Positions 12,035 through 49,032 are shown, numbered from the stretch's first letter. The stretch is DNA of 64,000 bases from a virus (IMGVR_UViG_3300046804_003503:1-64000); one strand, 5' to 3'. Numbers and translations are program-made. The notes: generated by a model from the letters alone, not told the origin.

Positions 12035-12044
12035 GTGTATAATG
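12035..12044 (+). promoter_or_regulatory. Candidate late promoter GTGTATAATG
   Basis: GTGTATAATG lies 28 bp before the first rightward gene. No -35 box is visible. One of seven similar motifs in front of right-arm genes. Confidence 0.5.
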
Positions 12045-12062
12045 ATATATAGGAGATACTTT

Positions 12063-12236
12063 ATGAAAACTAAACAAACAATTGAAACACAATTGGAATG
12101 TCGCGCCGTTGCATCTTTGTGCGATCAAATAGAATCTGATTTGCTCAAAGAAGACAAATCTTTAGCCTCGTTATTAAGCGACAAGGATACCGCACATAGC
12201 GAGGATAATAATGACAAAACCAAATCTAGCGATTGA
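12063..12236 (+). CDS. Hypothetical protein, 57 aa
   Basis: A 57-residue polar protein beginning MKTKQTIETQLECRAVASLC, with an acidic Lys/Asp/Ser-rich tail; probably helical then disordered. AGGAG lies about ten bases before the ATG at 12063. Its end overlaps the following gene by 26 bases. It is the first gene of the rightward transcription unit. Family not recognised. Confidence 0.65.
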   Translation: MKTKQTIETQLECRAVASLCDQIESDLLKEDKSLASLLSDKDTAHSEDNNDKTKSSD

Positions 12237-12993
12237 AACATTTTCATTTAGTGAAAATAATGCTGATATTTTGCTTATTGGTATTGATAACATAGACAAG
12301 GCCAACATATACTTCTCTGAAGCTCATTACTATAAGTATATTACTGATAATAACTCTGTAAAGAATGTTATGGGGATCGGCCCCGAAAATAAGTTCTTTT
12401 ACAAAATTGCTGCTTATAAAGACAACAATCTTGTTTCTTATGAATATGGCGTTGGATACGCATATGATCTTGATGGCAGCACTTACTTCAAGCGTGAAAC
12501 ACCCATGCTATATGGTAAAAACGAAAATCACCAACGAGTGTTACAAAATAGTCAGTCACGGTTTTACTCTCCACCCGGAGCGATCAATATAATTACATCT
12601 GAAATTCCACCAAATAATACTGCTTTATATTTTGAAAAAAATTCTATTCTAGCATCTAAAGATGCATTTTTACCACATCCAATCAAAATTCTTGATAATT
12701 CTTTTTTAGCTCGCGTTTCTGAAGATGATTTATCTAGCTTATCATTTGATAGCAAAGACTTTAGCGATATTGTTGTAACTGCCCTAACGAAGTATACTAA
12801 ACAGCTTGCGCTAAAGTGTAGCAAACTAAACGCCAACAAGTTGGCGGTAAAGCAGTTACAGTTAGAGTCTAGTGATGGCGCTGGTGCTAAAGCTGGTACT
12901 TTTGTATATGATAATGAAACTGATACTGTAAAGTTTTATAATGGAAATAGATGGAGAACCCTAAAGTGGGCAGACGAAGAAAACCCGGAATGA
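12211..12993 (+). CDS. Putative virion protein with fibre-type C-terminus, 260 aa
   Basis: 260 residues, mixed composition. The C-terminal segment AGTFVYDNETDTVKFYNG with NRWRTLKW is the pattern seen at the tip or foot of many phage fibre proteins (a short beta unit with DTVKFYNG and a closing aromatic). The N-terminal two thirds are not recognised. GCGAGGATAATA precedes the ATG. Coupled by ATGA to the sigma-like gene downstream. A virion role is inferred from the C-terminus only. Confidence 0.6.
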   Translation: MTKPNLAIETFSFSENNADILLIGIDNIDKANIYFSEAHYYKYITDNNSVKNVMGIGPENKFFYKIAAYKDNNLVSYEYGVGYAYDLDGSTYFKRETPMLYGKNENHQRVLQNSQSRFYSPPGAINIITSEIPPNNTALYFEKNSILASKDAFLPHPIKILDNSFLARVSEDDLSSLSFDSKDFSDIVVTALTKYTKQLALKCSKLNANKLAVKQLQLESSDGAGAKAGTFVYDNETDTVKFYNGNRWRTLKWADEENPE

Positions 12994-13478
12994 AAATTCC
13001 AAAAAATATGTCAGAAGAAGAGGTGATTGATCAGATTAACATTGTCGTTAATAGGATGTCGGCAAGATATACCTTCCATGGTTATGACGTTAACGATATA
13101 AAACAAGAGGCATTTATTATTTGCATGGACGCTATGGAACGATATGATCAAAACCGCCCACTTGAAAATTTTCTAGCAGTTCACTTATCTAACAGGCTCA
13201 AGAACTTCGTTCGCGATAACTTCTACGTTAAAGGTGAAGAAGAAAAAAAGCGAATTCTTAAACCAAGTAGTTTATCTAATGAAGACTTAATTCTTACAGA
13301 AGAGCCGGTATATGATAATAGTCTTGATGCTAAAAGTATACAATCTATTGTTGATCACAAATTACCATCAGAATACCGCGCCGACTATCTAAAAATCATC
13401 AACGATGTTTATGTTCCTAAAAAGAGAAGAGAAGAAATCATTGCAACAATTAAGGAGTTGTTAGATGAAGAAGGGTAG
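12990..13478 (+). CDS. Sigma-factor-like protein (region 2), 162 aa
   Basis: A compact protein whose first half reads like sigma-70 region 2: DIKQEAFIICMDAMERYDQN (residues 36-55), the -10-recognition and core-binding helix pattern, then LENFLAVHLSNRLKNFVRDN with the aromatic-basic face that melts DNA. The tail holds a possible short second helix set (KKRREEIIATIKELL) instead of a full region 4. Phage late sigma factors such as T4 gp55 are likewise short and lack -35 recognition. An in-frame ATG at 12951 exists, but the ATGA overlap at 12990 is the more usual start. It may direct polymerase to the GTGTATA motifs; that link is inferred. Confidence 0.7.
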   Translation: MKIPKNMSEEEVIDQINIVVNRMSARYTFHGYDVNDIKQEAFIICMDAMERYDQNRPLENFLAVHLSNRLKNFVRDNFYVKGEEEKKRILKPSSLSNEDLILTEEPVYDNSLDAKSIQSIVDHKLPSEYRADYLKIINDVYVPKKRREEIIATIKELLDEEG

Positions 13479-14250
13479 AATCTCCAAAGAAGAGGAACGT
13501 ATAATCGGTCGCCTTATCGATCATGTTACCGTAGAAGATATAGCCAAGCAGCTTGACCGCGACGTTGAGAGCATAGATAGCTTCGTTAAACGCAAATTTA
13601 AGTTTGGATTATCTAATGAAGAAGCCGCCGCGTTCTCTCTAGAAGATCGCCCCTACTGGATTGAACTAGAGAATCAATTTACTCCATCAGAGTTAGAACT
13701 TTTTAAGTATCACTGGTCGCGCATAATTTCACAGTTCAAAGATGATGTATTTCCCACAGAAGAACTACAGGTCGTGGATGTTATAAAGCTAGAAATACTT
13801 ATGAACCGCTGCTTAAAAAGTAATAAGGATAACCTTAACGAGATGACCACTCTTGAAAAGTTACTTTCAGACGAGCGCGCCGTCGATAAGGACCAACGCG
13901 ACCACGATTACGTTCTTAATCTTGAGCGCCAACTTGCGTCATTGCGGGCATCCCAAGAAGCTCTTAACAGGGATTACCGTGAGCTTCAAACAAAGAAGGC
14001 AGCTATTCTACGCGAAATGAAAGGAACCCGCGAACAGCGTATTAAGCGACTAGAAGATAGCAAGCAAAGCTTTACGGCATGGGTAGCTAACTTAATGCAA
14101 GATCCAGAAACGCTGAAGCGTTATGGTATTGAAATGGAGAAAATGAGACTAGCTATGCTAAAAGAAAAGGAACGCTTGAGCGCGTTCCATAAGTATGAGG
14201 ATGGACAAATTGATCAACCTTTCCTTACCCCAGACACTGTGATAGAATGA
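13465..14250 (+). CDS. Terminase-small-subunit-like HTH protein, 261 aa
   Basis: The N-terminal 55 residues form a helix-turn-helix candidate (EERIIGRLIDHVTVEDIAKQ then LDRDVESIDSFVKRKF), followed by a globular middle and a long coiled coil (about residues 140-200: LERQLASLRASQEALNRDYR). DNA-recognition HTH plus an oligomerising helical body is the layout of phage small terminase subunits, and the gene lies a few genes upstream of terL. No direct family match is claimed. AAGGAG lies about a dozen bases upstream, and its start overlaps the sigma-like gene by 14 bases. Confidence 0.55.
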   Translation: MKKGRISKEEERIIGRLIDHVTVEDIAKQLDRDVESIDSFVKRKFKFGLSNEEAAAFSLEDRPYWIELENQFTPSELELFKYHWSRIISQFKDDVFPTEELQVVDVIKLEILMNRCLKSNKDNLNEMTTLEKLLSDERAVDKDQRDHDYVLNLERQLASLRASQEALNRDYRELQTKKAAILREMKGTREQRIKRLEDSKQSFTAWVANLMQDPETLKRYGIEMEKMRLAMLKEKERLSAFHKYEDGQIDQPFLTPDTVIE

Positions 14251-14984
14251 AACCTATATCATGTAAATGTATAACTTACGGTCGCGTAGATACACTTGAA
14301 GAGTCTCTTTATTCTTTTTTAATACAAGAATATAAAGGCAATTCTGAGCTAATAATAGTTAATGATTATCCATTGCAAACTTTACATTTTGATCATCCTA
14401 GAGTAAAAATTTATAATATGGATTATACTTTTGATACTATAGGATCAAAGGAAAATTTTGCGGTATCTAAATGTTCATATGATATAATAGCAGTTTGGGA
14501 TGATGATGATATAGCTATGCCAAATCATCTTGATAATATCAATAAATTTTTTGTAGATGATTCTGATTTACTACATTGGCAACGCGGTGTGTTATTTAAC
14601 AATGGAGAAATTTCTTCAATTTCAAGCCTAGGAAACTCTGGTATAGTATTTAGTAAAAAAATATGGTCTAAACTTGGTGGCTATCCATTAGAAAATGCTG
14701 GTCACGATATGACATTCGTAATTAAGATTAAACATTCTTCTAATAATATTGTACTTGCTTCCCCGCAAAATAACGAAGTTAGTTGGTTCTATTATTGGGC
14801 AAATAGAAGTTATCATATGAGCGGAATGGGAACTGACACTCCAGATCGTCCAAATATAATACAAAGACATTCAGAACATATAGATAATTTACGCAAAGAT
14901 GGTAAAATACCAACCGGACACATATATTTACAGCCTAAGTGGAACAAAAATTACAAAAAATTGTTATTAAATTATGTTAATTGA
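14247..14984 (+). CDS. Family 2-type glycosyltransferase, 245 aa
   Basis: A GT-A fold enzyme: N-terminal CITYGRVDTLEESLYSFLIQ is the usual nucleotide-sugar strand-helix, and IIAVWDDDDIAMPNHLDNIN (from about residue 80) holds the DxD metal site. Around residue 150 GYPLENAGHDMTF resembles the acceptor-side ED/HD motif of family 2. Substrate unknown. First of four carbohydrate genes sitting inside the packaging module. It is very AT-rich, and its ATG overlaps the stop of the preceding gene, so it is built into the operon. Confidence 0.8.
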   Translation: MKPISCKCITYGRVDTLEESLYSFLIQEYKGNSELIIVNDYPLQTLHFDHPRVKIYNMDYTFDTIGSKENFAVSKCSYDIIAVWDDDDIAMPNHLDNINKFFVDDSDLLHWQRGVLFNNGEISSISSLGNSGIVFSKKIWSKLGGYPLENAGHDMTFVIKIKHSSNNIVLASPQNNEVSWFYYWANRSYHMSGMGTDTPDRPNIIQRHSEHIDNLRKDGKIPTGHIYLQPKWNKNYKKLLLNYVN

Positions 14985-15540
14985 CTTCATAATACCCACA
15001 TACAATAGAAATATACAATTAAATTGTATGTTACAGTCATTATTATGCCAAACAATTTCAGATTGGAGTGCTAATATAATAATTGATAATCCAGATGACT
15101 CATCAATCGTTGATTTAGTAAAATCATTTTCTGATCCAAGAATTAGATATTATAAGTTGGATCAAAGATATAACGATTTTGGTCACACGCCTAGAAATAT
15201 TGGTAAACAAATTAGTAACTCAAAATATATAATCATGACAGGCGATGACAATTATTATGTTCCTACGACGGTCTATGAACTATCTCTTTTATCTGAACAA
15301 AACGCCGGAATGATATATTGGGACATGATTCACTCTCATTATGATTATAAATATTTTCAATGTTCACCTTTCCTTAATAGGATAGACATGGGATCATTTG
15401 CAACCCGCTCCGATCTTGCACATCAAATTAATCTTGGAAGTGAATATGCCGCTGACGGATTGTTTGTAGAAAAATTTAAAACCTTATTTCCATATGAACA
15501 AATTTTATATATTCCTAAAGTATTATTTGTACATAACTAA
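14974..15540 (+). CDS. Second family 2-type glycosyltransferase, 188 aa
   Basis: Opens MLIDFIIPTYNRNIQLNCML, the classic family 2 start, with a metal-site equivalent at YIIMTGDDNYYVP (residues about 85-97) and an FGHTPRNIG segment between. At 188 residues it is a minimal GT-A domain. Overlaps the previous glycosyltransferase by 11 bases. Probably acts in series with it; donor and acceptor unknown. Confidence 0.8.
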   Translation: MLIDFIIPTYNRNIQLNCMLQSLLCQTISDWSANIIIDNPDDSSIVDLVKSFSDPRIRYYKLDQRYNDFGHTPRNIGKQISNSKYIIMTGDDNYYVPTTVYELSLLSEQNAGMIYWDMIHSHYDYKYFQCSPFLNRIDMGSFATRSDLAHQINLGSEYAADGLFVEKFKTLFPYEQILYIPKVLFVHN

Positions 15541-15552
15541 TTTATTTAAATC

Positions 15553-16080
15553 ATGAAACTATCAGAACAATACAAATTAAAAAATTACAATACAGATAAA
15601 AATACAGATCACTCCTATATAGATTACTTGTATAATGATATAACTGATCAAAATTATACAGATATTCTTGAGATCGGAGCTTTCAATGGTGGAAGTGCTT
15701 TACTCTGGCAAGACTACTTTATTAATGCTAATATAGATATTTTAGATATTAATGAATGTCAAGCAATAAAAAATCAACCTAGAATCAATCATATAGTTGG
15801 CAATGCATATTCTGACGAGTTAATAAAAAATCTTAGAACATATGATCTCATAATAGATGACGGCCCCCACACTCTAGAGAGTATGATCTATTTTATAGAC
15901 AACTATACTAAATTACTAAAAATAAATGGTACATGCGTTATAGAAGATATTCAGACTATAAATTGGTTTAATATTCTAATAGCTAGGATACCAAATAATT
16001 GTTTTTTTCAAATAGTTGATTTAAGAAATATTAAAAATAGATATGATGATTTAGTTTTGATCATTAGGAGAATAAAATGA
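15553..16080 (+). CDS. SAM-dependent methyltransferase, 175 aa
   Basis: Class I methyltransferase of the type that modifies sugars or small hydroxylated acceptors (Methyltransf_24/CmcI-like). Motif I is ILEIGAFNGGSALLWQDYF (residues 38-56), an acidic ribose-binding position follows in IDILDINE, and LIIDDGPHTLESMIYFI (about 98-114) is the family's catalytic loop. Set between glycosyltransferases and a GDP-mannose dehydratase, so an O-methylated sugar is a reasonable product; this is inference. Confidence 0.75.
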   Translation: MKLSEQYKLKNYNTDKNTDHSYIDYLYNDITDQNYTDILEIGAFNGGSALLWQDYFINANIDILDINECQAIKNQPRINHIVGNAYSDELIKNLRTYDLIIDDGPHTLESMIYFIDNYTKLLKINGTCVIEDIQTINWFNILIARIPNNCFFQIVDLRNIKNRYDDLVLIIRRIK

Positions 16081-17165
16081 AAGCAATAATATTTGGAATA
16101 ACTGGACAGGACGGAAGCCATCTTGCTGATTTACTTTTAGATAAAGACTACGAAGTAATCGGAGTTAGCAGAAGGTCTAGCGTTGACAATACAAAAAGAA
16201 TAAAACATATATTAACTCATCCTAAATTCAAACTGGAAGAGGGCGACATAACAGATGCTAGTAGCGTAAATAATATTTTTAGAAATAACGAGGATGTAGA
16301 TGAAATCTATAATCTAGCGGCCCAATCGCATGTGGGAACATCTTTCACTCAGCCGTCCCTGACTTGGGATATAACTGGCAAAGGCTGTCTTAATTTGTTG
16401 CAATCTATAGTTGACTTAGAGCTTCTTGGTGCTAAATTTTATCAAGCATCTTCCAGTGAGATGTTTGGTAAATCTTATGATATTGATGACAACGGCATAA
16501 AATATCAAGACGAAAATACTAGATTCTTACCACAATCTCCATACGCTGTTGCTAAAGTAGCATCTCATTATGCTGTACGCTTGTATCGCGAAGCTTATGG
16601 TATACATGGAAGTTGCGGAATATTATTTAATCATGAAGGTCCAAGGAGAGGCGACCACTTTGTTACCAAAAAGGTAGTAAATTGGGTTGTTAATTTTCAT
16701 AACTGGTTAGAACAAAATAATTTTAATATTTCTCATTTATGTTACTCTGAATCCGAAATCTTTGGACTATATGATAAAAAATTCCCCAAATTAATGCTTG
16801 GTAATTTAGACGCATGTAGGGATTGGGGATATGCTGGAGATTACGTTGAAGCCATGTGGCTAATGCTACAACAGGGAGAACCAGATGATTATGTCATATG
16901 TACAGAAAATACATATTCAATTAAGGATCTTTTGGATGTGTCTTTTGGATATTTTGGTACAGATTGGGTTAATTTTGTAGGAATAGATCAAAAATTTTAT
17001 AGACCAGCAGAAGTAGACTACCTAAGAGGAAGGTCAACAAAAGCAAAACAAAAATTGGGATGGAATCCAAAATATGACTTAAATAGTCTTATTAAATTAA
17101 TGATAGATGAGAAAATCAATGAAAACTTACAGAATAATGTTGGATATATCCAATGTGTTCACTAA
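16077..17165 (+). CDS. gmd: GDP-mannose 4,6-dehydratase
   Basis: Extended short-chain dehydratase converting GDP-mannose to GDP-4-keto-6-deoxymannose, the precursor of fucose, rhamnose and related sugars. Visible: NAD-binding GITGQDG (residues 7-13), the catalytic set S126, E128, Tyr156 and Lys160 (SSSEMFG and SPYAVAKVASHYAV), and the family motif LFNHEGPRRG. Length (362) matches bacterial Gmd. Encoded with two glycosyltransferases and a methyltransferase, it probably makes a donor for a deoxysugar used by them. ATGA overlap with the gene before. Confidence 0.92.
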   Translation: MKAIIFGITGQDGSHLADLLLDKDYEVIGVSRRSSVDNTKRIKHILTHPKFKLEEGDITDASSVNNIFRNNEDVDEIYNLAAQSHVGTSFTQPSLTWDITGKGCLNLLQSIVDLELLGAKFYQASSSEMFGKSYDIDDNGIKYQDENTRFLPQSPYAVAKVASHYAVRLYREAYGIHGSCGILFNHEGPRRGDHFVTKKVVNWVVNFHNWLEQNNFNISHLCYSESEIFGLYDKKFPKLMLGNLDACRDWGYAGDYVEAMWLMLQQGEPDDYVICTENTYSIKDLLDVSFGYFGTDWVNFVGIDQKFYRPAEVDYLRGRSTKAKQKLGWNPKYDLNSLIKLMIDEKINENLQNNVGYIQCVH

Positions 17166-17367
17166 AATAAGACATCTAATTCTTAGATCGTATAATAGCC
17201 CCTTTCCAACAGTTTTTATTAATGCAAAAGATCCAGATGAAGCATGTTTTGAAGTACTAAACGATTTAATCAATATTATTATGAAGCAAAATACATCTAT
17301 AGAAATGAGAATTATTTGTAGAGAAATACGTCGCAAGTCTAGAATAGATAAGATATATTTATTATGA
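17137..17367 (+). CDS. Hypothetical basic protein, 76 aa
   Basis: A small basic protein, MLDISNVFTKIRHLILRSYN then a PFPTVFINAKDPDEACFEV stretch and a basic C-terminus. The start is uncertain: in-frame ATGs at 17107 and 17119 also lie inside gmd and none has a good ribosome site; 17137 gives the least overlap. Coupled to the HNH gene by an ATGA-type overlap. Function unknown. Confidence 0.55.
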   Translation: MLDISNVFTKIRHLILRSYNSPFPTVFINAKDPDEACFEVLNDLINIIMKQNTSIEMRIICREIRRKSRIDKIYLL

Positions 17368-17618
17368 AAAGAAATTATGATGATCCAGCATATAAAGAAT
17401 TTAGAAAATGTGTTCTTAAACGTGACAAGTATAAATGCATGATGTGTAAAAACAAAACACAATTACAAGTACATCACATAAAAAAGTGGTCTAGAGCTAG
17501 CGCCTTAAGATATGAAGTATCTAATGGAATAACATTATGTAAAAAATGCCATGATCGCATAAAAGGTTATGAACATCAATATGAACATTTTTTCAGAGTA
17601 TTAATAGATGAGCTATAA
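17364..17618 (+). CDS. HNH endonuclease, 84 aa
   Basis: A minimal HNH nuclease: zinc knuckle CMMC (Cys25, Cys28), QVHHIKKW with the catalytic His pair (37-38), Asn54 in SNGITLC, and a second knuckle CKKCH (59-63). No extra DNA-binding domain. HNH proteins near terminase genes often help packaging or cleavage in phages of this type; free-standing homing is the alternative. It sits directly before the ERCC4 nuclease, two genes upstream of the protease and terL. Confidence 0.88.
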   Translation: MKRNYDDPAYKEFRKCVLKRDKYKCMMCKNKTQLQVHHIKKWSRASALRYEVSNGITLCKKCHDRIKGYEHQYEHFFRVLIDEL

Positions 17619-18108
17619 AGTTGCCCCGCCATTTACTGTCATAAAAGACACAAGAGAACAAGATGGCTATTTTTTTAGCGCATTTAATACTTGCGCTGGA
17701 ATGATAGAAGAAAAATTAGACACCGGGGATTATTCTATACAAGGTATGGAAGATAAAATATGTATAGAACGTAAAGGATGCGTAGAAGAATTAGCAGTTA
17801 ATCTTGGTCAAAAAAAACATGCTTTTCTTGCAGAAATAGAACGAATGGAATCGTTTCCGCATAAGTTTATAGTACTAGAATTTTCTTTAGAAGATTTGAT
17901 TAAATTTCCAGATGAAACTCGTATACCAGTAAAAAACAAATCTGCTCTAAAAATAACTGGAAAATACATGCTTAAATGTTTATTTGAATTTCAATTGTAT
18001 AATAATATTCAAATTCTCTTCTGTGGCAATAAATATAATGCATTTTTAGCTGTTAGTAGCATCCTAAAACGAGTGAACGAAATGTACACTATAGGGAGGA
18101 AAAAATGA
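17608..18108 (+). CDS. ERCC4-type nuclease, 166 aa
   Basis: Contains the ERCC4/XPF-type nuclease signature: VIKDTREQDG near the N-terminus, KLDTGDYSI (residues 36-44) and the metal-binding IERK (about 53-56), in the order D...GD...ERK. Only the nuclease domain is present, with no helix-hairpin-helix. Such proteins act on branched DNA; in phages they may resolve replication or packaging intermediates. It overlaps the HNH gene by 11 bases and the protease gene by four. Confidence 0.85.
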   Translation: MSYKVAPPFTVIKDTREQDGYFFSAFNTCAGMIEEKLDTGDYSIQGMEDKICIERKGCVEELAVNLGQKKHAFLAEIERMESFPHKFIVLEFSLEDLIKFPDETRIPVKNKSALKITGKYMLKCLFEFQLYNNIQILFCGNKYNAFLAVSSILKRVNEMYTIGRKK

Positions 18109-18749
18109 TGGCTGAACCAGAGTTACTGAAAGATTTTCATGATTATGGGGCTAATATAGCCACAAGAGAAATATTCTTACACAATCACTATCACGCAGAA
18201 GATAATCAAAATCCCGGCGTAGAATATCGTATGTCTAATACCTTTATCAAAAATTTAAGAGCTTTGGATATGCGCAGCAATGCAAATATAACTATTCATT
18301 GCCACAGCATTGGCGGTGAGTGGTCTGACGGTATGGCAATTTACGATGCTATCCAAATGTGTAGATCATATGTCACTATCATTATATACGGCCAAGCTGA
18401 ATCTATGAGCAGTATTTTTATGCAAGCCGCAGATTATCGTTATATGACTCCAAATGCGCATTTTATGAGTCACTATGGGTCTTCAGATATAAATACTGAT
18501 TATCTCAGTGCCATGAATCAAGCCGATTACGAGCGCAAAACTGCTGATGCCATGTTTAACATATATGCTAATAGATGTGTAGAAGGAAAATTCTTCTATG
18601 AAAAATTTGGAAAAAAACCAAGTGTTAAACAAGTTCGTCAATATTTAATTCGCAAATTAAAATCTGGCGATTGGTATCTTAATGCTGAAGAAGCTGTATA
18701 TTACGGTTTTGCAGACTCCATACTTCGCAATTGGCATTTCACTGAATGA
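18105..18749 (+). CDS. ClpP-like (S14) serine protease, 214 aa
   Basis: A ClpP-fold protease: NITIHCHSIGGEWSDGMAIY resembles the ClpP N-terminal crossover, catalytic Ser100 lies in YGQAESMSSIF, and His123 in NAHFMSHYGS; an Asp in GDWYLNAEEAVYYGF (about 189) can complete the triad. Phage S14 enzymes usually mature the prohead. Here a second, assemblin-type candidate is encoded at 31766, so the division of labour is unclear. AGGGAGG precedes the ATG, which overlaps the ERCC4 stop. TerL follows at once. Confidence 0.82.
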   Translation: MMAEPELLKDFHDYGANIATREIFLHNHYHAEDNQNPGVEYRMSNTFIKNLRALDMRSNANITIHCHSIGGEWSDGMAIYDAIQMCRSYVTIIIYGQAESMSSIFMQAADYRYMTPNAHFMSHYGSSDINTDYLSAMNQADYERKTADAMFNIYANRCVEGKFFYEKFGKKPSVKQVRQYLIRKLKSGDWYLNAEEAVYYGFADSILRNWHFTE

Positions 18750-20734
18750 GTAAAGATAAATTAAAAATCATTGATGAGGCTTGGCTTGGATTAGATGTTA
18801 TTGAAACTGACATCTTCAATCCAATGTCTATACTTAATCCTTCTGAAGATGACTTTCATCTAAAGTTGTCTTGGCTTATGAGTAGACCAGAATACTTATC
18901 ATTTTTGTGCCATCAAATTCTTAATATACAACTTTTACCATCACAATCACTTATTATAAATGAATTGTGGGTTAGAAAATTTCCAATGCTTGTTGGCAGT
19001 CGAGGTTTGGGCAAATCTTTTCAATTAGCACTATATTCTATCATACGTGGAATGCTTTTGCCCAAGCGCAAAATTGTTATAGTTGGTGCAGCATTTAGAC
19101 AATCAAAAGTCTTGTTTGAATACATGGAAACTATTTGGCGCAATGCCCCAATGCTTAGAGATATGTGTGATAGCAATAGCGGTCCAACCAGAGATGTTGA
19201 TCGCTGTACCATGAGAATTAACGAGAGCGTTATAACTTGCTTACCACTGGGTGACGGCCAAAAGATTAGAGGCCAACGCGCAAATGATATCATTGCTGAC
19301 GAATTTGCATCCATACCAAGAGATATTTTTGAAAACGTAGTAGCGGGCTTTGCCGCCGTAAGTGCTGATCCAGTTCAAAATGTAAAAAGAATGTCTGCTA
19401 AGAAAAAAGCAGCAGAACTTGGTATTGAATTAGAAACAGAAGAAGACAATTCCGAAGTAAAAGACAATCAAATTATTCTATCTGGTACAGCATATTATGA
19501 TTTTAATCACTTTGCAACATATTGGAAAAAATGGAAAGCAATTATCAAAAGTCGTGGTAATATTGCTAAATTAACAGACGTATTTGGTGGAGAAAAACCA
19601 CCAGAAACATTCGATTGGCGTCAATATTCTATCATTCGTATGCCATATGAATTGCTACCGCAGGGTTTTATGGATGCTGATCAAGTAGCAAGATCAAAGG
19701 CCACTGTACATGCTGGTATTTATCAAATGGAATACGGAGCTTGTTTTACTAGAGATAGTCAGGGGTTCTTTAAAAGATCTTTGATAGAATCTTGTGTAGT
19801 TGGCAATAATGATAATCCAGTAAAAGACTTACATGGAAATATTATCAAATTTGAGGCAACACTAATTGGCGATAAAAATAAAAAATATGTTTTTGGTGTT
19901 GACCCCGCATCCGAAGTAGACAATTTTAGCATAGTGGTATTAGAAATTAATCCAGACCATAGAAGAATAGTTCATTGTTGGACAACAACTAGACAAGAAC
20001 ATAAAGAAAAAGTCAAAAAGGGCTATGCAAATGAAAGTGACTTTTATGCATACTGTGCTAGAAAAATTAGAGATTTGATGAAACTATTTCCATGCTATCA
20101 TATAGCACTTGATGCTCAAGGTGGCGGTATTGCAATTATGGAATCTCTCCACGATCAAGATAAAATAAAGGATGGTGAATTACCCATATGGCCGACTATA
20201 GATGATGACAAGCCAAAAGATACTGACGGAGAAAGAGGACTACACATACTAGAAATGTGTCAATTTGCAAAATATGAATGGCTTTCTGAAGCTAACCATG
20301 GCATGAGAAAAGATTTCGAAGATAAAGTTTTGTTATTTCCATTTTTTGATTCTATAACACTTGGATTATCTAATTCAGAAGATGGTCTTAAAAATAGAAT
20401 GTATGATACTCTTGAAGAGTGCGTAATGGATATAGAAGAGCTAAAAGATGAGCTATCTATGATACAAATGACACAAACTACTAATGGTAGAGATAGGTGG
20501 GATACTCCAGAAGTTATAGTTGGAACTGGTAAAAAAAGCAAGATGAGAAAAGACCGATACTCTGCTTTATTAATGGCTAATATGGCCGGAAGAATAATGC
20601 AACGCACACCAACTCCAGAAGAATATCAATTTTATGGTGGTTTTGCAACAGGTGGTCACACTCCAGAAAAATTGGATGACAAGCTTTATACTGGTCCAAG
20701 TTGGTTCTCTGATTATATGAAAGATGTGTATTAA
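18746..20734 (+). CDS. terL: Terminase large subunit
   Basis: The packaging motor: ATPase and nuclease in one chain of 662 residues. Walker A GSRGLGKS (84-91) after an adenine-binding stretch, Walker B DIIADE (181-186) with the catalytic Glu, and a C-terminal RNase H-like nuclease with acidic residues in FGVDPASEVDN (about 383-393) and ALDAQGGG (about 451-458). Somewhat longer than the usual 450-600 because of a charged insert near residues 210-240. It sits between protease and portal; the stop lies within a candidate late promoter for the portal. Confidence 0.95.
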   Translation: MSKDKLKIIDEAWLGLDVIETDIFNPMSILNPSEDDFHLKLSWLMSRPEYLSFLCHQILNIQLLPSQSLIINELWVRKFPMLVGSRGLGKSFQLALYSIIRGMLLPKRKIVIVGAAFRQSKVLFEYMETIWRNAPMLRDMCDSNSGPTRDVDRCTMRINESVITCLPLGDGQKIRGQRANDIIADEFASIPRDIFENVVAGFAAVSADPVQNVKRMSAKKKAAELGIELETEEDNSEVKDNQIILSGTAYYDFNHFATYWKKWKAIIKSRGNIAKLTDVFGGEKPPETFDWRQYSIIRMPYELLPQGFMDADQVARSKATVHAGIYQMEYGACFTRDSQGFFKRSLIESCVVGNNDNPVKDLHGNIIKFEATLIGDKNKKYVFGVDPASEVDNFSIVVLEINPDHRRIVHCWTTTRQEHKEKVKKGYANESDFYAYCARKIRDLMKLFPCYHIALDAQGGGIAIMESLHDQDKIKDGELPIWPTIDDDKPKDTDGERGLHILEMCQFAKYEWLSEANHGMRKDFEDKVLLFPFFDSITLGLSNSEDGLKNRMYDTLEECVMDIEELKDELSMIQMTQTTNGRDRWDTPEVIVGTGKKSKMRKDRYSALLMANMAGRIMQRTPTPEEYQFYGGFATGGHTPEKLDDKLYTGPSWFSDYMKDVY

Positions 20735-20741
20735 ATAATAG
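20726..20741 (+). promoter_or_regulatory. Candidate late promoter GTGTATTAAATA
   Basis: GTGTATTAAATAATAG overlaps the terL stop and lies 48 bp before the portal ATG. No -35 box. Confidence 0.45.
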
Positions 20742-20773
20742 CAATCCGATTACATTCCAATTAAAGGAAAAAC

Positions 20774-22864: not shown

Positions 22865-22865
22865 C

Positions 22866-23261
22866 ATGGGCGCAGCAGAATACAATTTTTCTATACAGCA
22901 AGGCTCTTCTTTTGCTATATCTTTCACATATAAAGATAGTACAAATACTGTAGTAGATATTTCTAATTGGTGTGCTAGAATTATAATGACAACCAGTGAC
23001 AACCAAACAATAACATATAGCTCTGGTACTACAAATTCTGATTATAAAATGACTATAGATGGACCAAATGGTAAAATTACCTTGCTCCTTCCAGCAATTA
23101 CTACAAACAATTTCACATTTAAAACAGCCAAGTATGATCTTGAGCTTGAGTCAGACGATATACTTTATTCTGGTGGTGGAAATTATACTAATAGAATTCT
23201 GTATGGCGTAATAACAATAGTTAAGCGCAGCAGTCATAGTTCTACTATTTTGGAGTGCTAA
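22866..23261 (+). CDS. Small beta-sandwich virion protein, 131 aa
   Basis: A beta-rich protein with the layout of N-terminal attachment modules in baseplate or fibre proteins (BppU-like): F-x-I-x-Q-G-S-S-F at the start, VVDISNWCARI, a central GKITLLLP and YDLELESDD, then a final strand. It starts two bases after the portal stop and heads a block of fibre genes. Assignment is by pattern, so moderate confidence. Confidence 0.6.
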   Translation: MGAAEYNFSIQQGSSFAISFTYKDSTNTVVDISNWCARIIMTTSDNQTITYSSGTTNSDYKMTIDGPNGKITLLLPAITTNNFTFKTAKYDLELESDDILYSGGGNYTNRILYGVITIVKRSSHSSTILEC

Positions 23262-24247: not shown

Positions 24248-24260
24248 GTGTATAAAATAC
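24248..24260 (+). promoter_or_regulatory. Candidate late promoter GTGTATAAAATAC
   Basis: Lies one base after the fibre stop and 43 bp before the next ATG. No -35 box. Confidence 0.5.
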
Positions 24261-24290
24261 TGAATATTCACACACCACAAAGGGGACACC

Positions 24291-31729: not shown

Positions 31730-31741
31730 GTGTATATTATC
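31730..31741 (+). promoter_or_regulatory. Candidate late promoter GTGTATATTATC
   Basis: Lies 36 bp before the protease/scaffold ATG in an otherwise empty 106-bp gap that also contains AACGTTAT (31709-31716). No -35 box. Confidence 0.5.
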
Positions 31742-34695: not shown

Positions 34696-34722
34696 TATAG
34701 TCTATAAATATCAATCACAATT

Positions 34723-34756
34723 AAGCCATCCTCAAGAGATTGGGGGTGGCTTTTTT
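34723..34756 (+). terminator. Rho-independent terminator after the capsid gene
   Basis: AAGCCATCC and GGGTGGCTT form a stem with a short AAGAG-containing loop, followed by TTTTTT (34751-34756). The GTGTATAATAGA motif begins at the next base, so termination and restart are back to back. Confidence 0.85.
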
Positions 34757-34768
34757 GTGTATAATAGA
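34757..34768 (+). promoter_or_regulatory. Candidate late promoter GTGTATAATAGA
   Basis: Immediately follows the terminator and lies 51 bp before the next ATG; AACGTTAT follows at 34774. This position is the strongest evidence that the motif is a promoter. Confidence 0.6.
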
Positions 34769-34807
34769 GTAGATAACGTTATTTAAGGATAAGAATAGGA
34801 GAAATAT

Positions 34808-35509: not shown

Positions 35510-35521
35510 CTGGAACTTAAA

Positions 35522-38818: not shown

Positions 38819-38835
38819 TATAGATTGGATAAATT

Positions 38836-40965: not shown

Positions 40966-40975
40966 AGGTATAATT

Positions 40976-42370: not shown

Positions 42371-42384
42371 AAAAGGAATAGATT

Positions 42385-42984
42385 ATGAAATTAACAAACA
42401 GTATAAAAATTCAACCCCCTCCATATTCAGATAATTCTGGACAAATCTTTAATCCACCAGAACTCAATCTAAATGAATTACATTTTATTTTTATAGACAA
42501 TCCAAAAGCAAAAATAATTAGCGCACAAATACAAGGATTACCTTTAAACATACCTATTTGGAATGGAAATGAATATGATCTTATTGGAGATTGGACTAAA
42601 TCACAAGCAGAAACTAAAATTTCAGAACTACTTGGCGATGATCCATCAAAATATTTACGATCTTTATATCCAAAAACTTTAGAAGAACATCCCAATCATC
42701 CCGGAACTATTTTATCAAAAATGATTAAATCTTTAGGAATACAAATAACTGATAGTTGTTCATGTAAACGCCACGCTCTAGAAATGAATGACAAAGGGAA
42801 CGATTGGTGTGAGCAAAATATAGATACCATAGTTGGGTGGCTTAGAGATGAAGCGCATCGCAGAAATTTACCTTTTATTGATACTATAGGCAAACTATTG
42901 GTAGGTAGAGCCATAAAAAAATCGCGCAAATTACTAGCTAATGAACCAATTCCAGAAAATGACGAAGAATTAGATACAATATAG
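42385..42984 (+). CDS. Conserved phage protein with CxC and WCEQN motif, 199 aa
   Basis: The C-terminal half matches a recurrent phage module: LGIQITDSCSCKRHALEMND then WCEQNIDTIVGWLRDEA and a helical end (FIDTIGKLLVGRAIKK). The CxC may bind metal. The N-terminal half (WNGNEYDLIGDWTKSQAET) is not recognised. Role unknown; it opens the neck region. Confidence 0.65.
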   Translation: MKLTNSIKIQPPPYSDNSGQIFNPPELNLNELHFIFIDNPKAKIISAQIQGLPLNIPIWNGNEYDLIGDWTKSQAETKISELLGDDPSKYLRSLYPKTLEEHPNHPGTILSKMIKSLGIQITDSCSCKRHALEMNDKGNDWCEQNIDTIVGWLRDEAHRRNLPFIDTIGKLLVGRAIKKSRKLLANEPIPENDEELDTI

Positions 42985-42989
42985 TTTTA

Positions 42990-43002
42990 GTGTATACTAT
43001 AG
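42990..43002 (+). promoter_or_regulatory. Candidate late promoter GTGTATACTATAG
   Basis: Lies six bases after the preceding stop and 46 bp before the ATG of the neck gene at 43036. No -35 box. Confidence 0.45.
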
Positions 43003-43035
43003 TAGAAGAATATATAACTAAATCGGGGAATTTCT

Positions 43036-43551
43036 ATGTCTTGGCGAAGTCAAATACCGCTTGTAGTCAGATATTTGATCAATGATGTTGATCAGTCTAA
43101 TTATAAATATTCTGATGAAAGAATAGAAACATCTATTCTTGTAGGGGCGCAGCTTTTGACCATAGAAACTGATTTTGGTGAAACATATTCTATTGATATA
43201 GCCAATGGAAATTTGTCCCCAGACCCAGTAGATATAAAAGATAATGCCTTCATAAATTTATCTGCTCTCAAGACTGCTTGTTTTATTGTTGGTAGTGAAT
43301 TAAAGACAGAAGCTTCTAATGCTATATCCATCAAAGATGGACCTTCTGCTATAGACTTAAGGGGAGTAGCCTCTACCCTATCAGTTCTATACAAAGATTT
43401 GTCAGATAAATATAAACAAATGTTATTAGATTATCGCGCTGGCGGAAGCGTTGTTGGACACGCCATACTTGGCCCATACAGCCCCGCTAGTGATTACGTT
43501 GTTAGAACTCATGGTGATTATGATTCCAGAGGCGGTTATTTCAGATACTAA
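43036..43551 (+). CDS. Probable head-tail adaptor, 171 aa
   Basis: Mostly helical; begins MSWRSQIPLVVRYLINDVDQ and has the shape of head-tail connector adaptors (helices, a beta hairpin near ETDFGETYSIDIANG, a basic C-terminus). The size and position before other neck genes support this; no sequence family is claimed. It ends with a Gly/Tyr-rich tail, RGGYFRY. Confidence 0.55.
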   Translation: MSWRSQIPLVVRYLINDVDQSNYKYSDERIETSILVGAQLLTIETDFGETYSIDIANGNLSPDPVDIKDNAFINLSALKTACFIVGSELKTEASNAISIKDGPSAIDLRGVASTLSVLYKDLSDKYKQMLLDYRAGGSVVGHAILGPYSPASDYVVRTHGDYDSRGGYFRY

Positions 43552-43563
43552 TGGAGATTTACA

Positions 43564-44535
43564 ATGCCTATTAAAACTAGCGGACAATTAACAACTGACA
43601 TTGGCATCGCTTTGGCAGACAATAATGCTGGAGAAATATCTGCTGCCGACGTTAGAAATAGTATACTAGATACTGTTGCTTCTATAAATCATATTGTTGC
43701 TAATGGAGATTTTACCAATGTCAATCCATTTTTAAAAAATATAACTATAAAAAGAACAATAGGTGACAATGGTACTGGTCAGATCATTGTGGAATCTGGC
43801 ATCAGATTTGCTAATGATAGTAATAGTCTTCAAACCGTTGCATATCCGGGTCCGGGACATATAGAGCATAATGATTTAGATAAATTAGACGAGGGTGATC
43901 CACATACGCAATACATTCCAAAAAATGGAAGCCGAGTCTTTGAACTTGGTAATATAGGATTTAGCAATTGCTGGATTAATTCAAGCGGTAGTTCAAACGC
44001 AGAAACAACCCTTGGAAAAGGATTACAGTTTAGATATCTTTCATCATCAAAAGAAAATATCAATGTTGGCAGTGGTACTCAGTTTACTTTCTTAAAAGAT
44101 AACTCTGTAATGAATTCTTCTAGAGGTGTCGCAAAAGCTTGGATTAGATTCGAAGCTAGTGGAGTTGGTGGAGATGGTAGGCCGGTCGTTAAAGATGCTT
44201 ACAATGTTTCTGGTATTAAAAAACAAGATATTGGTAAGTTCACTATTATTTTTAACTCAGGTGTGTTTAAAGATAATAACTATGTAGCAGTAGGACACAG
44301 TAATGGAAGGAGTTTGGCTGGCAGTATGGAAGATTTTAGTGAAAATACTGTAGCTATGTCATATAGAACTGGCGATGACGCCACTAAGCTAAGATCAATA
44401 AGCTTTGTTGTTATGGGAGAAGATGTTGGAGCATATCTAGATGGTAAAATCAATGATTTAGTTGTGTTTGGCACAGAGCCAGCAGGAAGCGGATATGCAG
44501 ATTTTGTTGTAATTAATCCAACATACAATGCTTAA
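43564..44535 (+). CDS. Fibre-like virion protein, 323 aa
   Basis: The N-terminal ~55 residues (GQLTTDIGIALADNNAGEIS, AADVRNSILDTVASI) mirror those of the 35522 gene, suggesting a shared docking module. A GDPHTQY motif near residue 115, common in phage fibres, follows, and the C-terminal 140 residues form a beta domain ending in GSGYADFVVINPTYNA. It may be a side fibre attached at the neck or baseplate. Confidence 0.65.
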   Translation: MPIKTSGQLTTDIGIALADNNAGEISAADVRNSILDTVASINHIVANGDFTNVNPFLKNITIKRTIGDNGTGQIIVESGIRFANDSNSLQTVAYPGPGHIEHNDLDKLDEGDPHTQYIPKNGSRVFELGNIGFSNCWINSSGSSNAETTLGKGLQFRYLSSSKENINVGSGTQFTFLKDNSVMNSSRGVAKAWIRFEASGVGGDGRPVVKDAYNVSGIKKQDIGKFTIIFNSGVFKDNNYVAVGHSNGRSLAGSMEDFSENTVAMSYRTGDDATKLRSISFVVMGEDVGAYLDGKINDLVVFGTEPAGSGYADFVVINPTYNA

Positions 44536-44543
44536 CATAAAAT

Positions 44544-46394
44544 ATGATTAAACTGCATGACAGAGTAAAAGAATTAAGTTATGTAATCGGCACAGGCAAT
44601 GCAATATTGTCTGGTGCTGTTGGTGGATTTACTACGTTCTCATCTTGTTATTCCAATAATGATTCTTTTTTTTATGTCATAAATGATGGAACTAATTATG
44701 AGCTAGGGTCTGGAGTATATTTGTCAGCAACAAATGCTATACAAAGATTTCCAGTAAAAAGCACAAATAGCAATAATATAGTTAATTTTTCAGAAGGCAC
44801 CAAAGAGATATATGTAAATTATCCAGCTACAAATGCTGTTTTCAATACATCTGGTTTAAGTCCAGTTCCACAAAATAGTGGTATAGCTTTTTGGACTTCA
44901 TCTAACTCTTTGTCTTACAGCAATAAGTTTATAGTGGATTCTGGTCGTGGAAACATAGGAATCAACAAATCCAATCCATATTATGCTATTGACATAGGTG
45001 GATTAAGTGCAAACTCTATTATCAGATCATCTGGCTTTTTTGTTGGAGATTCTGGAATATATTTTCCATCTGGCAATGATGGCACTTCATCGTATTCTGG
45101 TGGAATACAATTCGTTCATTTTGAACCCAATCAATTATCCTTTCCTCTTATATCTATATTACAACTGAGTGGTATTGTAAATCAAAATATATTACTTAAA
45201 AAGCAAAATACCGGAATGGTATTTGCCGGTCCATCCGGTCTGTGCAATCCATCGTGCGATCCAGACTATCCTACTTTTAGATATTTAATAAAAGAAGATT
45301 TGCCAGACTTATCTTCTTTATATTTTACTACTATAAATGGAGAAACTGTTTCTGGAGTCGCTACACAAATTTCTGGAGTGTTAAATAATAAAATAGATAC
45401 CGTATCTGGCGCACTGAATGACCAAATTGCTGTTGTATATAATAATATTTCATCAATAAATCTATCAACCAACGTTTGTTATGGAAGATTATCTATAAGT
45501 CCTACAAACTCAGTTGCTGAAGGGTATTCTGATACAATATATTTTGTTCCACATAATGGAAATATTATATCATTATATAATGGATCTTCATGGCAACAAG
45601 TATCTTTTAATTCGATGGTTGCAAAAACGGTTAGTACACTATATGCCCCCGGATCACCAGTTAATCCAGCAAATATTATATTTGATATATTTGCTTATTT
45701 AGACAATAACGCAATATCTTTTGAATCAGTAGCTTGGTCTAACCAAACCCAAAGAGCCACGCAACTCGGCATAAAAGATGGTGTATATGTAAAATCTGGC
45801 GATAATACTAGAAGATACATTGGATCAGTTATGCCAATAACATATCCGGGTTATCCGCCGACAGGTGGCAATAAATTTCATAATATAAATAATTATAGAT
45901 ATATATATAATCACTATAATAAAACTCAAGTGTTGGCATACTCTACTTTAAGAACATTGTCTAGAACTTGGACCTGTCCTTCCAATGTCTGGAGAGAAAT
46001 ACCGAATACCTATATTGCTTTTTTGAATAGCATGACAATCAATCTTTTATGTGGCATTCAAGAGGATACAATATCTGTTAATGGTTCTGTATACTATATA
46101 TCATCTTTAACTCCAAATAGTAATTATATGTTAACTGTTAATAATAGCAGAATTAATCTTACAGAAATAGATAATCCATACTCTAGTTTTAGTGAGCCGA
46201 CATCATATAGTATTGGTATTTTATCTACTGATAGTAATGACAATATAAACAGTCAAATTCGTGGATCATTATCACATCATGTTCCAATTGGATTAAATAC
46301 ATATTATATGGCAGAAAAAATATTAACTGGTAAAAATTCTCCCAATTTAGTTTTAGATTATTCTAATGGAATTTCTACTTCTTGGAGGTGTTAA
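44544..46394 (+). CDS. Fibre-like virion protein, 616 aa
   Basis: Opens with a widely shared phage virion domain: LHDRVKELSYVIGTGNAILS, then GAVGGFTTFSSCY and a YELGSGVYLSATN to EIYVNYPATNAV end (residues 1-95). Beta-rich stalk and a C-terminal domain with WSNQTQRATQLGIKDGVYVK follow, the type found at fibre tips. It overlaps the next gene by one base. Confidence 0.7.
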   Translation: MIKLHDRVKELSYVIGTGNAILSGAVGGFTTFSSCYSNNDSFFYVINDGTNYELGSGVYLSATNAIQRFPVKSTNSNNIVNFSEGTKEIYVNYPATNAVFNTSGLSPVPQNSGIAFWTSSNSLSYSNKFIVDSGRGNIGINKSNPYYAIDIGGLSANSIIRSSGFFVGDSGIYFPSGNDGTSSYSGGIQFVHFEPNQLSFPLISILQLSGIVNQNILLKKQNTGMVFAGPSGLCNPSCDPDYPTFRYLIKEDLPDLSSLYFTTINGETVSGVATQISGVLNNKIDTVSGALNDQIAVVYNNISSINLSTNVCYGRLSISPTNSVAEGYSDTIYFVPHNGNIISLYNGSSWQQVSFNSMVAKTVSTLYAPGSPVNPANIIFDIFAYLDNNAISFESVAWSNQTQRATQLGIKDGVYVKSGDNTRRYIGSVMPITYPGYPPTGGNKFHNINNYRYIYNHYNKTQVLAYSTLRTLSRTWTCPSNVWREIPNTYIAFLNSMTINLLCGIQEDTISVNGSVYYISSLTPNSNYMLTVNNSRINLTEIDNPYSSFSEPTSYSIGILSTDSNDNINSQIRGSLSHHVPIGLNTYYMAEKILTGKNSPNLVLDYSNGISTSWRC

Positions 46395-46906
46395 TGCTAT
46401 ATACGCTATATAATAAGATTAATTCTATCCTACCAATAGAATCTTTATCTGAATCGGCTGATGGTATTGAGATAAGTTATTATAATAATAATTTTCCAAA
46501 TGAAAGTCAACTAAATGAAATTAATAATTTAGTAAATACATGGCCCTTAACAAAATCTAAATTAGAAAAAATACAACTTCTAGATAATAATTGGAAAATT
46601 AAAATAGATGCTGGTTGGCAAACTCCAGAAGGATATTATTTAGGTATAGATATTTCTGATGTGGCATTACTAAACGGAGCTTTTACATTAGCTAAAGAAG
46701 CTAGTGCTATGGGTATCACAGATCCCGTCAGTATAGTTGACATTGACGGCCAATCTCACTCTATGAATTTACAAGATTTAACGATGCTCATGTTACAATA
46801 CGGTCAGGCCCGATCATCTTTAAGTAATTCTTATGCTTCAATCAAGCAATTAATCAATAACGCAACTTCAGTAGAAGAATTAGAAGCAATTAATATTAAT
46901 CTATAG
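46394..46906 (+). CDS. DUF4376-like fibre-assembly-type protein, 170 aa
   Basis: The C-terminal half resembles the DUF4376-type helical domain that follows many fibre genes: WQTPEGYYLGIDISDVALLN, then VSIVDIDGQSHSMNLQDLTM and a helical end with SVEELEAI. Such proteins are thought to help fibre folding or sit on fibres. The ATG at 46394 has GGAGGTG at the right distance, so the in-frame ATG at 46382 is not used. Confidence 0.65.
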   Translation: MLYTLYNKINSILPIESLSESADGIEISYYNNNFPNESQLNEINNLVNTWPLTKSKLEKIQLLDNNWKIKIDAGWQTPEGYYLGIDISDVALLNGAFTLAKEASAMGITDPVSIVDIDGQSHSMNLQDLTMLMLQYGQARSSLSNSYASIKQLINNATSVEELEAININL

Positions 46907-46914
46907 GTGCAACT

Positions 46915-47397
46915 ATGCCAGTAAATGTGCCAGAGAGCGTATTCGATAAATATTATGACGTTATTGATTCAACATTTGATATTTTTGGAATTATGTGTCA
47001 ATTAGTTTCTGTTGATAAAGTAGAAGAAGTTATTTATAGTCCACATAACAATATTCCAGAAAAAAATTCTATTAATGTTCATCGCCTTCGTGATGGAGAT
47101 TATGAAAGAGGCAATAAAATCATAAAAGAAGTAGAAATCTTAACTGATATTAAACTCAAAGTTTATTGGAATCCAAAAGAGTGGATCAATGTTACGGGCG
47201 CAATACAAGTTCCCGATAATGTAATACAGACCATAGGATTTATGTCCGATCTTCCGAAAATACTAAAAGCAAAAGCATTAATAGTAAATAAAGATTTGTT
47301 GGATATCAAACAAATGAGATTTCAAAGAATGGGCGAACATATTCCAATGGGATTAAGACAAAATAGATATTTTTCATGTTTATGGAGTCGAGTATGA
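46915..47397 (+). CDS. Probable neck or head-completion protein, 160 aa
   Basis: A 160-residue protein of mixed fold with a central beta part (VEILTDIKLKVYWNPKEWIN, VTGAIQVPDNVIQT) and a basic, aromatic C-terminus. The position between adaptor and tail tube, and the size, suit a head-closure protein. Not recognised by sequence; its stop overlaps the next start (ATGA). Confidence 0.55.
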   Translation: MPVNVPESVFDKYYDVIDSTFDIFGIMCQLVSVDKVEEVIYSPHNNIPEKNSINVHRLRDGDYERGNKIIKEVEILTDIKLKVYWNPKEWINVTGAIQVPDNVIQTIGFMSDLPKILKAKALIVNKDLLDIKQMRFQRMGEHIPMGLRQNRYFSCLWSRV

Positions 47398-48041
47398 CCA
47401 TATCTATAAAACTTTTAGACAGTGAAAAACAAATAGAAGGAATGATTTTATCTGCATTATCAGACCAATTCAACAGTGCTATTAGAAATAATGCCTATAA
47501 AATAACAGAAGAAATCAAATCTTTGATACCAAGTTGGATTAATTCTCAGCCAGAAATTAATGCTTTATTATCTAGAGAATTAGTTGGTCAATTTGGCATA
47601 ACCATATCTCCACAATCTATAGTGAATTCGATAATTGATTCTGTTATAAATTCAATATCCATATCTGTCAAGACTTACAATAATAAATTAAAGGGTGGCG
47701 GTTTAGAGATAAGTATTCAACCAGATAATTTTATCAATTTATTGGGATTACCGCAGGGGCATTCAATATATCAAGCTACCAACTTTGCTCCCGGTGGAGA
47801 TTTACATTGGCTAGAATGGATGTTAATACGTGGCGACGAAATAATTGTTGTTGGATATGAATACAACCCTAGAACTGGCATTGGAAGAACTGGTCTTGGT
47901 AATATGATATCCGGCAAGGGATTTAGAGTTCCACCGCAATATTCTGGTACTGAAAAAAACAATTTTATTACTAGAGCCTTATCAGGTTCGACCCAAGAAA
48001 AAGAAATTACTAAAGTATTTAAGAAGGTATTGGATACATAA
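47394..48041 (+). CDS. Probable tail-completion (neck) protein, 215 aa
   Basis: An amphipathic helical N-terminal half (LLDSEKQIEGMILSALSDQF) followed by a beta-rich part, including GGDLHWLEWMLIRGDEIIVV, and a basic GRTGLGNMI segment. That order is seen in HK97-gp10-type and other tail-terminator-region proteins. GGAG precedes the ATG at 47394; the in-frame start at 47376 lies inside the previous gene. Function by position. Confidence 0.55.
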   Translation: MTISIKLLDSEKQIEGMILSALSDQFNSAIRNNAYKITEEIKSLIPSWINSQPEINALLSRELVGQFGITISPQSIVNSIIDSVINSISISVKTYNNKLKGGGLEISIQPDNFINLLGLPQGHSIYQATNFAPGGDLHWLEWMLIRGDEIIVVGYEYNPRTGIGRTGLGNMISGKGFRVPPQYSGTEKNNFITRALSGSTQEKEITKVFKKVLDT

Positions 48042-49015
48042 TGAGTAATTATCTTAATTTAAAAGGATTTAATAGTGTATTCGACAATACTCTAAATAAT
48101 GAACTACAAGATAATATAATTGAATTTTTAGATTGGTCATTACTTGAAAAGGGTAACTATATGAATGTTACCTTGGGTGAACTGTCTAATCAAGGAATAG
48201 ACTCCAGTAAACTAAGAATATCGTCAAATACTTCTTATCCAAGTGGAAAAGCTTGGGAAGGATTTAGACAAAATTGGGTTTGGCAAAGCGGAATATCATA
48301 TAATCCACCACCAATAGTTGGATCTAACAATACCATTCCCGGCATTTCTGGAGTTTATGTAAACGGCACTTTTCATCCGTCTAGTTCGTCTGGTACATAT
48401 GCTCATAAAGTAGACTATTATAATGGAAGAATAATATTCAATAATCCAATTCCCACCGGCAGTTTAGTACAAGCTGAATTTAGTTATAAATATATAAACG
48501 TAGTCTATGCTAACAGTCTACCTTGGCTCGCAGAAGTGCAATATTCTTCTTTGGATCTAGGCCCAGATTTTGCAGTATTAAATAAGGGTAAATATGATAT
48601 ACCAGCAGAAGCTAGAATTCAACTACCAACTATAGCGGTTGAAATAGTACCAAAAAGATCATTACGTGGATATCAACTTGGCGGCGGTCAATGGGTAGAA
48701 ACTGATGTTCTTTTCCATTGTTTGGCCGAGGATGAATATACCAGAAATAAATTAGTAGATATTATCTCACTGCAAAATGATAAAACTATATATATGTTTA
48801 ATAGCAACCAAATAGCTTCTAGTGGATCTTTTCCATTAGATTATATGGGTTTTCCAGTTTCTGGAGCCATGAGATATCCAGATCTAATAAATAATTTTTT
48901 ACGTGGAAGTCTCAGATTAAAAAATTCTAGTGTCCAAAATATGAAATTAATTAACAGCAATTTTTATGCTGGGATTGTGCGGTTAACATTAGAAACAATA
49001 GAACTTTCAGTCTAA
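48041..49015 (+). CDS. Structural protein of the neck/tail region, 324 aa
   Basis: 324 residues, beta-rich, starting MSNYLNLKGFNSVFDNTLNN. A GISGVYVNGTFHPSSSSGTY loop and VDYYNGRIIFNNPIPTGSLV (about residues 110-160) are typical of phage virion beta domains, and WVETDVLFHCLAEDEYTRNK is a conserved-looking core. It lies immediately before the tail tube. It could be a tail terminator or tube-associated protein. Overlaps the previous stop by one base. Confidence 0.55.
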   Translation: MSNYLNLKGFNSVFDNTLNNELQDNIIEFLDWSLLEKGNYMNVTLGELSNQGIDSSKLRISSNTSYPSGKAWEGFRQNWVWQSGISYNPPPIVGSNNTIPGISGVYVNGTFHPSSSSGTYAHKVDYYNGRIIFNNPIPTGSLVQAEFSYKYINVVYANSLPWLAEVQYSSLDLGPDFAVLNKGKYDIPAEARIQLPTIAVEIVPKRSLRGYQLGGGQWVETDVLFHCLAEDEYTRNKLVDIISLQNDKTIYMFNSNQIASSGSFPLDYMGFPVSGAMRYPDLINNFLRGSLRLKNSSVQNMKLINSNFYAGIVRLTLETIELSV

Positions 49016-49019
49016 TTTA

Positions 49020-49032
49020 GTGTATAAGTAAC
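49020..49032 (+). promoter_or_regulatory. Candidate late promoter GTGTATAAGTAAC
   Basis: Begins five bases after the preceding stop and lies 45 bp before the tail-tube ATG. No -35 box. Confidence 0.5.

Follow-up and report, generated by a model that had tools for sequence, protein, structure and literature searches.

The late sigma factors gp33 and gp34 of SPO1 use promoters with two elements. Phage 7-11 gp47 keeps region 4, and its promoters also have two elements (PMC8948821). T4 gp55 is a small region-2 sigma factor, and the T4 late promoter is a single -10-like box, TATAAATA, with no -35 element (PMC7892883). The sigma factor gp36 of phiEco32 has no region 4 and uses a single -10-like box, tAATGTAtA, with no -35 element; these boxes precede virion operons, and the genome has an opposed early arm (PMC8948821). 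Here we describe a GTGTATA box and a candidate sigma factor of a phage from the IMG/VR collection.

The window, i.e., the whole stretch of DNA that was analysed, covers the initial 64 kb of a virus record of 161,058 bases (IMGVR_UViG_3300046804_003503) with a G+C content of 35%. Genes were called with a simple caller written for this analysis. The record has two arms. The leftward arm extends from 81.2 kb to the end of the record and also takes in 1-11.6 kb; it carries replication and nucleotide genes (DNA polymerase III alpha, RecA, SSB and ribonucleotide reductase). The rightward arm (12.0-81.2 kb) carries the virion genes, namely Clp-type protease, terminase, head proteins, fibres and tape measure. 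IMG/VR contains at least 596 relatives of the terminase, which is only about 23-28% identical to cultured phages. The record also has a phage-encoded tmRNA gene (G000:134199-134557, minus strand; L092:10199-10557) that matches Rfam RF00023 with 130 bits and has the tag GETQLALAA.

A first-pass annotation of the window had proposed seven GTGTATA motifs, each shortly before an ATG at the head of a transcription unit, as late promoters. All of the sites are present and six are exact (Table 1). The site at 20726 reads GTGTATTAAATA, in which GTGTATT has one mismatch to the 7-mer, and is therefore a site without being an exact copy. The box-to-ATG distances could be reproduced, and there are indeed zero bases between the terminator of the capsid gene and the box at 34757; many relatives have a similar GGTGGCTTTTTT run upstream of the box. 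The placement of the boxes at operon heads was upheld, whereas the gene labels neck and tail tube received no confirmation from PHROGs. The annotation had also suggested comparing gaps to coding sequence, and the motif turned out to be far denser in gaps. In the right arm (12000-81190), the 1,077 gap bases contain 7 sense copies of GTGTATA and the 68,123 coding bases contain 6 (Fisher p 3.4e-10); no other 7-mer is as strongly enriched in gaps. Every one of the 7 gap copies lies 25-55 bp upstream of a gene start, a zone that makes up 2.2% of the arm's length (p 3e-9, binomial test). These copies are the six exact sites mentioned above and an additional site at 80404, outside the window, which precedes the last right-arm gene and was missing from the first-pass annotation. 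Counting the GTGTATT variant, the right arm has eight sites in total. Over the whole window, bare GTGTATA shows no excess (15 copies vs 10.8 expected, with 13 of 100 shuffles reaching 15), a count that is misleading because placement, and not number, carries the signal. Avoidance of the box inside genes is only slight (25 observed vs 33 expected).

Table 1 Features of the window. Column Distance denotes the box-to-ATG distance in bp. Column Support denotes relatives having the box at the corresponding gene, or other evidence.
Feature	Position	Strand	Distance	Support
GTGTATA box, heads first right-arm operon (57-aa ORF, 260-aa ORF, sigma, 261-aa ORF)	12035..12041	+	28	34/37 relatives
Variant box GTGTATT in last codons of terminase, upstream of putative portal gene	20726..20732	+	48	codon conservation
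GTGTATA box, heads fibre operon	24248..24254	+	43	2/2 relatives reached
GTGTATA box, upstream of gene 31766	31730..31736	+	36	43/54 relatives
GTGTATA box, upstream of gene 34808	34757..34763	+	51	23/24 relatives
GTGTATA box, upstream of gene 43036	42990..42996	+	46	GTGTATA in 5/12 relatives, GTGTATT in 7/12
GTGTATA box, upstream of gene 49065	49020..49026	+	45	GTGTATA in 9/14 relatives
Leftward GTGTATA box without -35, upstream of gene 4993-5406	5449..5455	-		
Intrinsic terminator AGCCATCC...GGGTGGCT and T run, 3' of capsid gene, abuts next box	34724..34756	+		sequence reading
Small sigma-70 family protein, 175 aa, region 2, no detectable region 4; probable box reader	12951..13478	+		
Conserved 261-aa protein with N-terminal HTH-like stretch, overlaps sigma gene; perhaps small terminase subunit	13465..14250	+		
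Early promoter TTGACG-N16-TATAAT, leftward arm (example)	11631..11658	-		
Other early promoters in the window	starts 582, 4403, 5619, 6093, 6623, 8040, 8752, 10308, 10596, 11327	-		
G+C-rich left-arm repeat	about 831-890, 4420-4490, 6640-6730, 9890-9970, 10720-10800, 11800-11850			

The same placement is seen in related phages. Among 80 loci fetched with the terminase, the 35,684 gap bases contain 101 sense copies of GTGTATA and the 789,017 coding bases contain 9; the word is the top-ranked gap 7-mer. The antisense word occurs once in gaps and 24 times in genes. In 46 divergent loci, which were fetched with a sigma factor 45% identical to that of the window, GTGTATA is again the top 7-mer (gaps 69 copies, genes 20). 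The 80-bp stretches preceding genes contain 127 copies vs 0.4 expected from coding sequence. Single-base variants are mostly near background; GTGTATT, GTATATA and TTGTATA reach 4- to 5-fold, and GTGTGTA reaches 14-fold on three copies only. The box counts at corresponding genes of relatives (Table 1, and 3 of 3 orthologues for gene 80445) are not independent events, since many loci share kinship. Of the five relatives without GTGTATA upstream of gene 49065, four carry GTGTATC further upstream. Operon-internal genes have the box upstream in almost no case, with zero counts for, e.g., sigma (0/69), Clp-type protease (0/87), terminase (0/100) and the capsid gene (0/38). Chance as the source of this placement is excluded. 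A logo of 68 deduplicated sites has a T-rich stretch, GTGTATA, A or T, and then T; only its flanks are informative, as the sites were picked by exact GTGTATA. In the loci with the most distant sigma factors (36% identity), operon heads carry GGGTATA, GCGTATA and GTGTATT. This hints that sigma factor and box have drifted together, as seen in two loci of one lineage only.

The variant at 20726 lies inside the terminase gene, where it forms the C-terminal codons Val (GTG) and Tyr (TAT) followed by the stop. We looked at codon use in relatives, in a comparison devised after seeing the data and on sequences that share ancestry; the contrast is nonetheless sharp. In terminase genes having no separate GTGTATA after the stop, the Val codon is GTG in 108/108 and the Tyr codon is TAT in 108/108, compared to GTG in approximately 7% of codons at the other conserved Val columns. 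In the 26 terminase genes that do have a separate post-stop GTGTATA, the Val position is mostly Ile, and Tyr is encoded by TAC in 16 and TAT in 10. This overturns the possibility that the site is a mere coding coincidence; the simplest reading is that selection acts on the DNA word at the terminase end and is relaxed where another copy exists. GTGTATT is also used by divergent relatives upstream of gene 43036. The terminase-portal leader (20735-20773) contains several copies of TCCAATTA, which among the 7-mers of relatives ranks second in gap enrichment.

The first-pass annotation had also stated that the boxes have no -35 element, and the measurements agree. The best TTGACA-like match upstream of the boxes averages 3.29/6 vs 2.94/6 upstream of random TATA of the arm, and no position of the logo at -35 distance exceeds about 0.3 bit. 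A separate promoter class, TTGAC-N16-18-TA[TG][AG]AT, has 25 members on the leftward strand of the left arm and zero on the other strand or arm; these early promoters have TGG before the -10 and tolerate TAGAAT. The left-arm gaps hold approximately ten GTGTATA sites, among them the one at 5455 (minus strand) that the first-pass annotation had missed. Most of them have no -35, which suggests that some left-arm genes may also use the late system. The GTGTATA at 4991 (minus strand) was rejected as a box, as it sits between the -35 and the -10 of an early promoter, TTGACA-N17-TATAAT. Taken together, the strand and placement of the boxes, their conservation at the heads of orthologous operons and the lack of a -35 strongly support a class of single-box promoters for virion-gene operons, where we infer late timing from gene content.

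Other conserved elements were observed between genes. A 65-bp non-coding element at 11930-11997, consisting of GGGGTGGTTCATACACAATT, approximately 15 bp, TTAATGTATTACCCAATCCTCCCC and ATCGCCCC, is conserved in most aligned relatives, where it shortly precedes the first late promoter. It was considered as an RNA and rejected, as its predicted stem has no covariation; for the same reason it looks like a DNA element (an origin, packaging or operator site). In the left arm, a G+C-rich repeat with TAAGGGTTTACG, AACGCGGCCCGCCCC and CTAAGTCCTTA words lies between leftward genes (Table 1).

The gene at 12951-13478 encodes, by its sequence and predicted fold, a sigma-70 family factor. The window copy passes the cut-off of PF04542 (sigma domain 2) with 25.5 vs 24 bits. 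Sigma70_r2 is matched by 28/28 sigma homologues, while region 4 was found in 0/28. All 28 also match the sigma-factor PHROGs 351 and 1740, the latter at E up to 0.1 with a best value of 7e-7; the window copy matches phrog_1740 weakly (E 3e-4). The predicted model (mean pLDDT 75) comprises a three-helix domain, a linker of poor prediction quality and a small helical domain at the C-terminus. Residues 17-91 of the model can be superposed on domain 2 of many sigma factors (approximately 70 residues, 1.7-2.4 A, Z 9-10). In those terminase-related loci that extend far enough, the gene has the same neighbours. Absence of region 4 predicts absence of a -35, as has been argued for phiEco32 gp36, and this protein is probably the reader of the GTGTATA boxes. 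Relatives of the sigma factor were also seen in contigs binned as a SAR202 bacterium (L172, VFHP01000009.1) and an Acidiferrobacteraceae bacterium (L173, PBOB01000075.1). L172 carries three GTGTATA gap sites and hence may belong to a related phage that was binned into a MAG; the binning of the two contigs is a weak host lead.

We consider it likely that the phage sigma factor together with the host core enzyme reads GTGTATA at the late promoters, and that early genes use promoters of the host primary sigma. Early leftward genes would be transcribed by host RNA polymerase and its primary sigma from TTGACA-TATAAT promoters. The phage sigma factor, having region 2 and no -35-reading region 4, would join the host core enzyme, and the complex would open the DNA at GTGTATA boxes; the recognition element may be the T-rich stretch followed by GTGTATA[A/T]T, with GTGTATT tolerated. 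As a result, approximately eight rightward virion-gene operons would be switched on, including the operon of the sigma factor itself. We counted in favour of this explanation that no multi-subunit RNA polymerase encoded by the phage was found. A search for single-subunit polymerase with PF00940 gave no match, with controls also silent, and no polymerase domain was detected in the large right-arm proteins, one of which was scanned from its 132nd residue only. We counted against it the weak PHROG and Pfam matches of the window copy (E 1e-5 to 1e-3) and the position of the sigma gene behind its own box, which, if no other promoter serves the gene, does not account for the first molecules.

The boxes could instead be extended -10 promoters of the host primary sigma (GTG + TATAAT) that need no -35, with the phage sigma factor doing other work. 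Extended -10 promoters without a -35 are known, and the host primary sigma might use the box because of the TATAAT-like -10 inside it, the logo 3' of GTG being TATA[A/T]T. However, the early promoters of this phage are built differently (TTGAC, TGG next to the -10, tolerance of TAGAAT), GTG invariably stands one base off the usual TGn position, the near-background level of most single-base variants is stricter than usual for a primary sigma, and the two promoter classes are separated by arm, all of which makes this reading unlikely. We think it quite unlikely that the reader is a second sigma-like protein of the left arm, encoded at G000:117624-118103 (minus strand; the same as L091:13624-14103). 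This small protein combines a sigma-like stretch with a region-4 HTH, and its conservation extends to at least 31 viral contigs; being encoded in the left arm, it could be made ahead of the late genes. Its region 4, however, should read a -35, which the boxes do not have; its region 2 match is weak (4 of 17 members at E up to 0.1), and in no more-divergent locus so far has it been seen to accompany the box. The lack of excess of the bare 7-mer over the whole window and the nearby conserved elements of unassigned role would be consistent with GTGTATA being another operon-head signal (an operator, processing or packaging site) or chance. Such a role is highly improbable, given that the word is strand-specific, is confined to operon heads, can lie directly 3' of a terminator and has unrelated flanks, and given that enrichment and orthologous-head counts rule out chance.

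Returning to the phage sigma factor as the probable reader, we lean, with modest confidence, to a more specific picture. Phage sigma factors of one lineage, which lack region 4, would read a near-invariant seven-base word in which GTG replaces the -35 element. The word may be so needed that one large clade has it in the last two codons of the terminase, freezing codon choice, and other clades have it just after the stop codon.

These observations make the late-gene map readable from sequence alone for an uncultured aquatic-metagenome phage group, that of the at least 596 terminase relatives. Candidate sigma factor and box come as a matched pair, and a single in vitro reaction could test the pairing. 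The natural variation, with sigma factors down to 36-44% identity and boxes ending in A, T or C, would open the study of the rules of a minimal sigma factor and a single element, and the terminase-end codons are a clear natural example of protein-coding sequence constrained by a promoter.

Compared to known systems, the phage shares with 7-11 (gp47) and SPO1 (gp33/gp34) the use of phage sigma factors that would steer the host core enzyme to late genes, and differs from both in having a single box where they have two-element promoters. The first-pass annotation had likened the boxes to T4 late promoters. The likeness holds in kind, i.e., a -10-like box and a region-2 phage sigma factor, and fails in detail, as the box is not TATAAATA and the sigma factor matches the PHROG of gp36 better. 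TATAAATA has 19 copies vs 13 expected, none of them as an operon-head box. The profile similarity to gp55 is weak (hhalign E 4e-4, probability 37%), the gp55 PHROG phrog_234 is matched by 2 of 28 sigma homologues at E 0.009 or weaker, and the fold matches of the window sigma model include the gp55 structure 7d7c_F. T4 late activation depends on a sliding clamp and the co-activator gp33; here a search limited to the beta-clamp family PF02768 gave no match to a host-type clamp. With phiEco32, the phage has in common a sigma factor without region 4, single boxes without -35 at virion operons and an opposed early arm. gp36 belongs to phrog_1740, which all 28 homologues of the window sigma factor match; in a single-sequence hhalign comparison, gp36 and the window sigma factor gave no confident alignment (probability 0.6%). 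Both boxes contain TGTATA, and tAATGTAtA is closer to GTGTATA than the T4 box is. The two differ in that the phiEco32 box begins with AAT and the box here with GTG, and that gp36, a protein of 214 aa, is encoded in the middle-gene arm, whereas the sigma gene here lies in the late arm; the phiEco32 box AATGTATA has 5 copies, below chance and at no operon head. The system nearest in logic is thus that of phiEco32, and the window sigma factor, the probable reader of the box, appears closer to gp36 than to T4 gp55. Single-box late promoters directed by a phage sigma factor are known already; what is new is this variant, in a large uncultured phage group.
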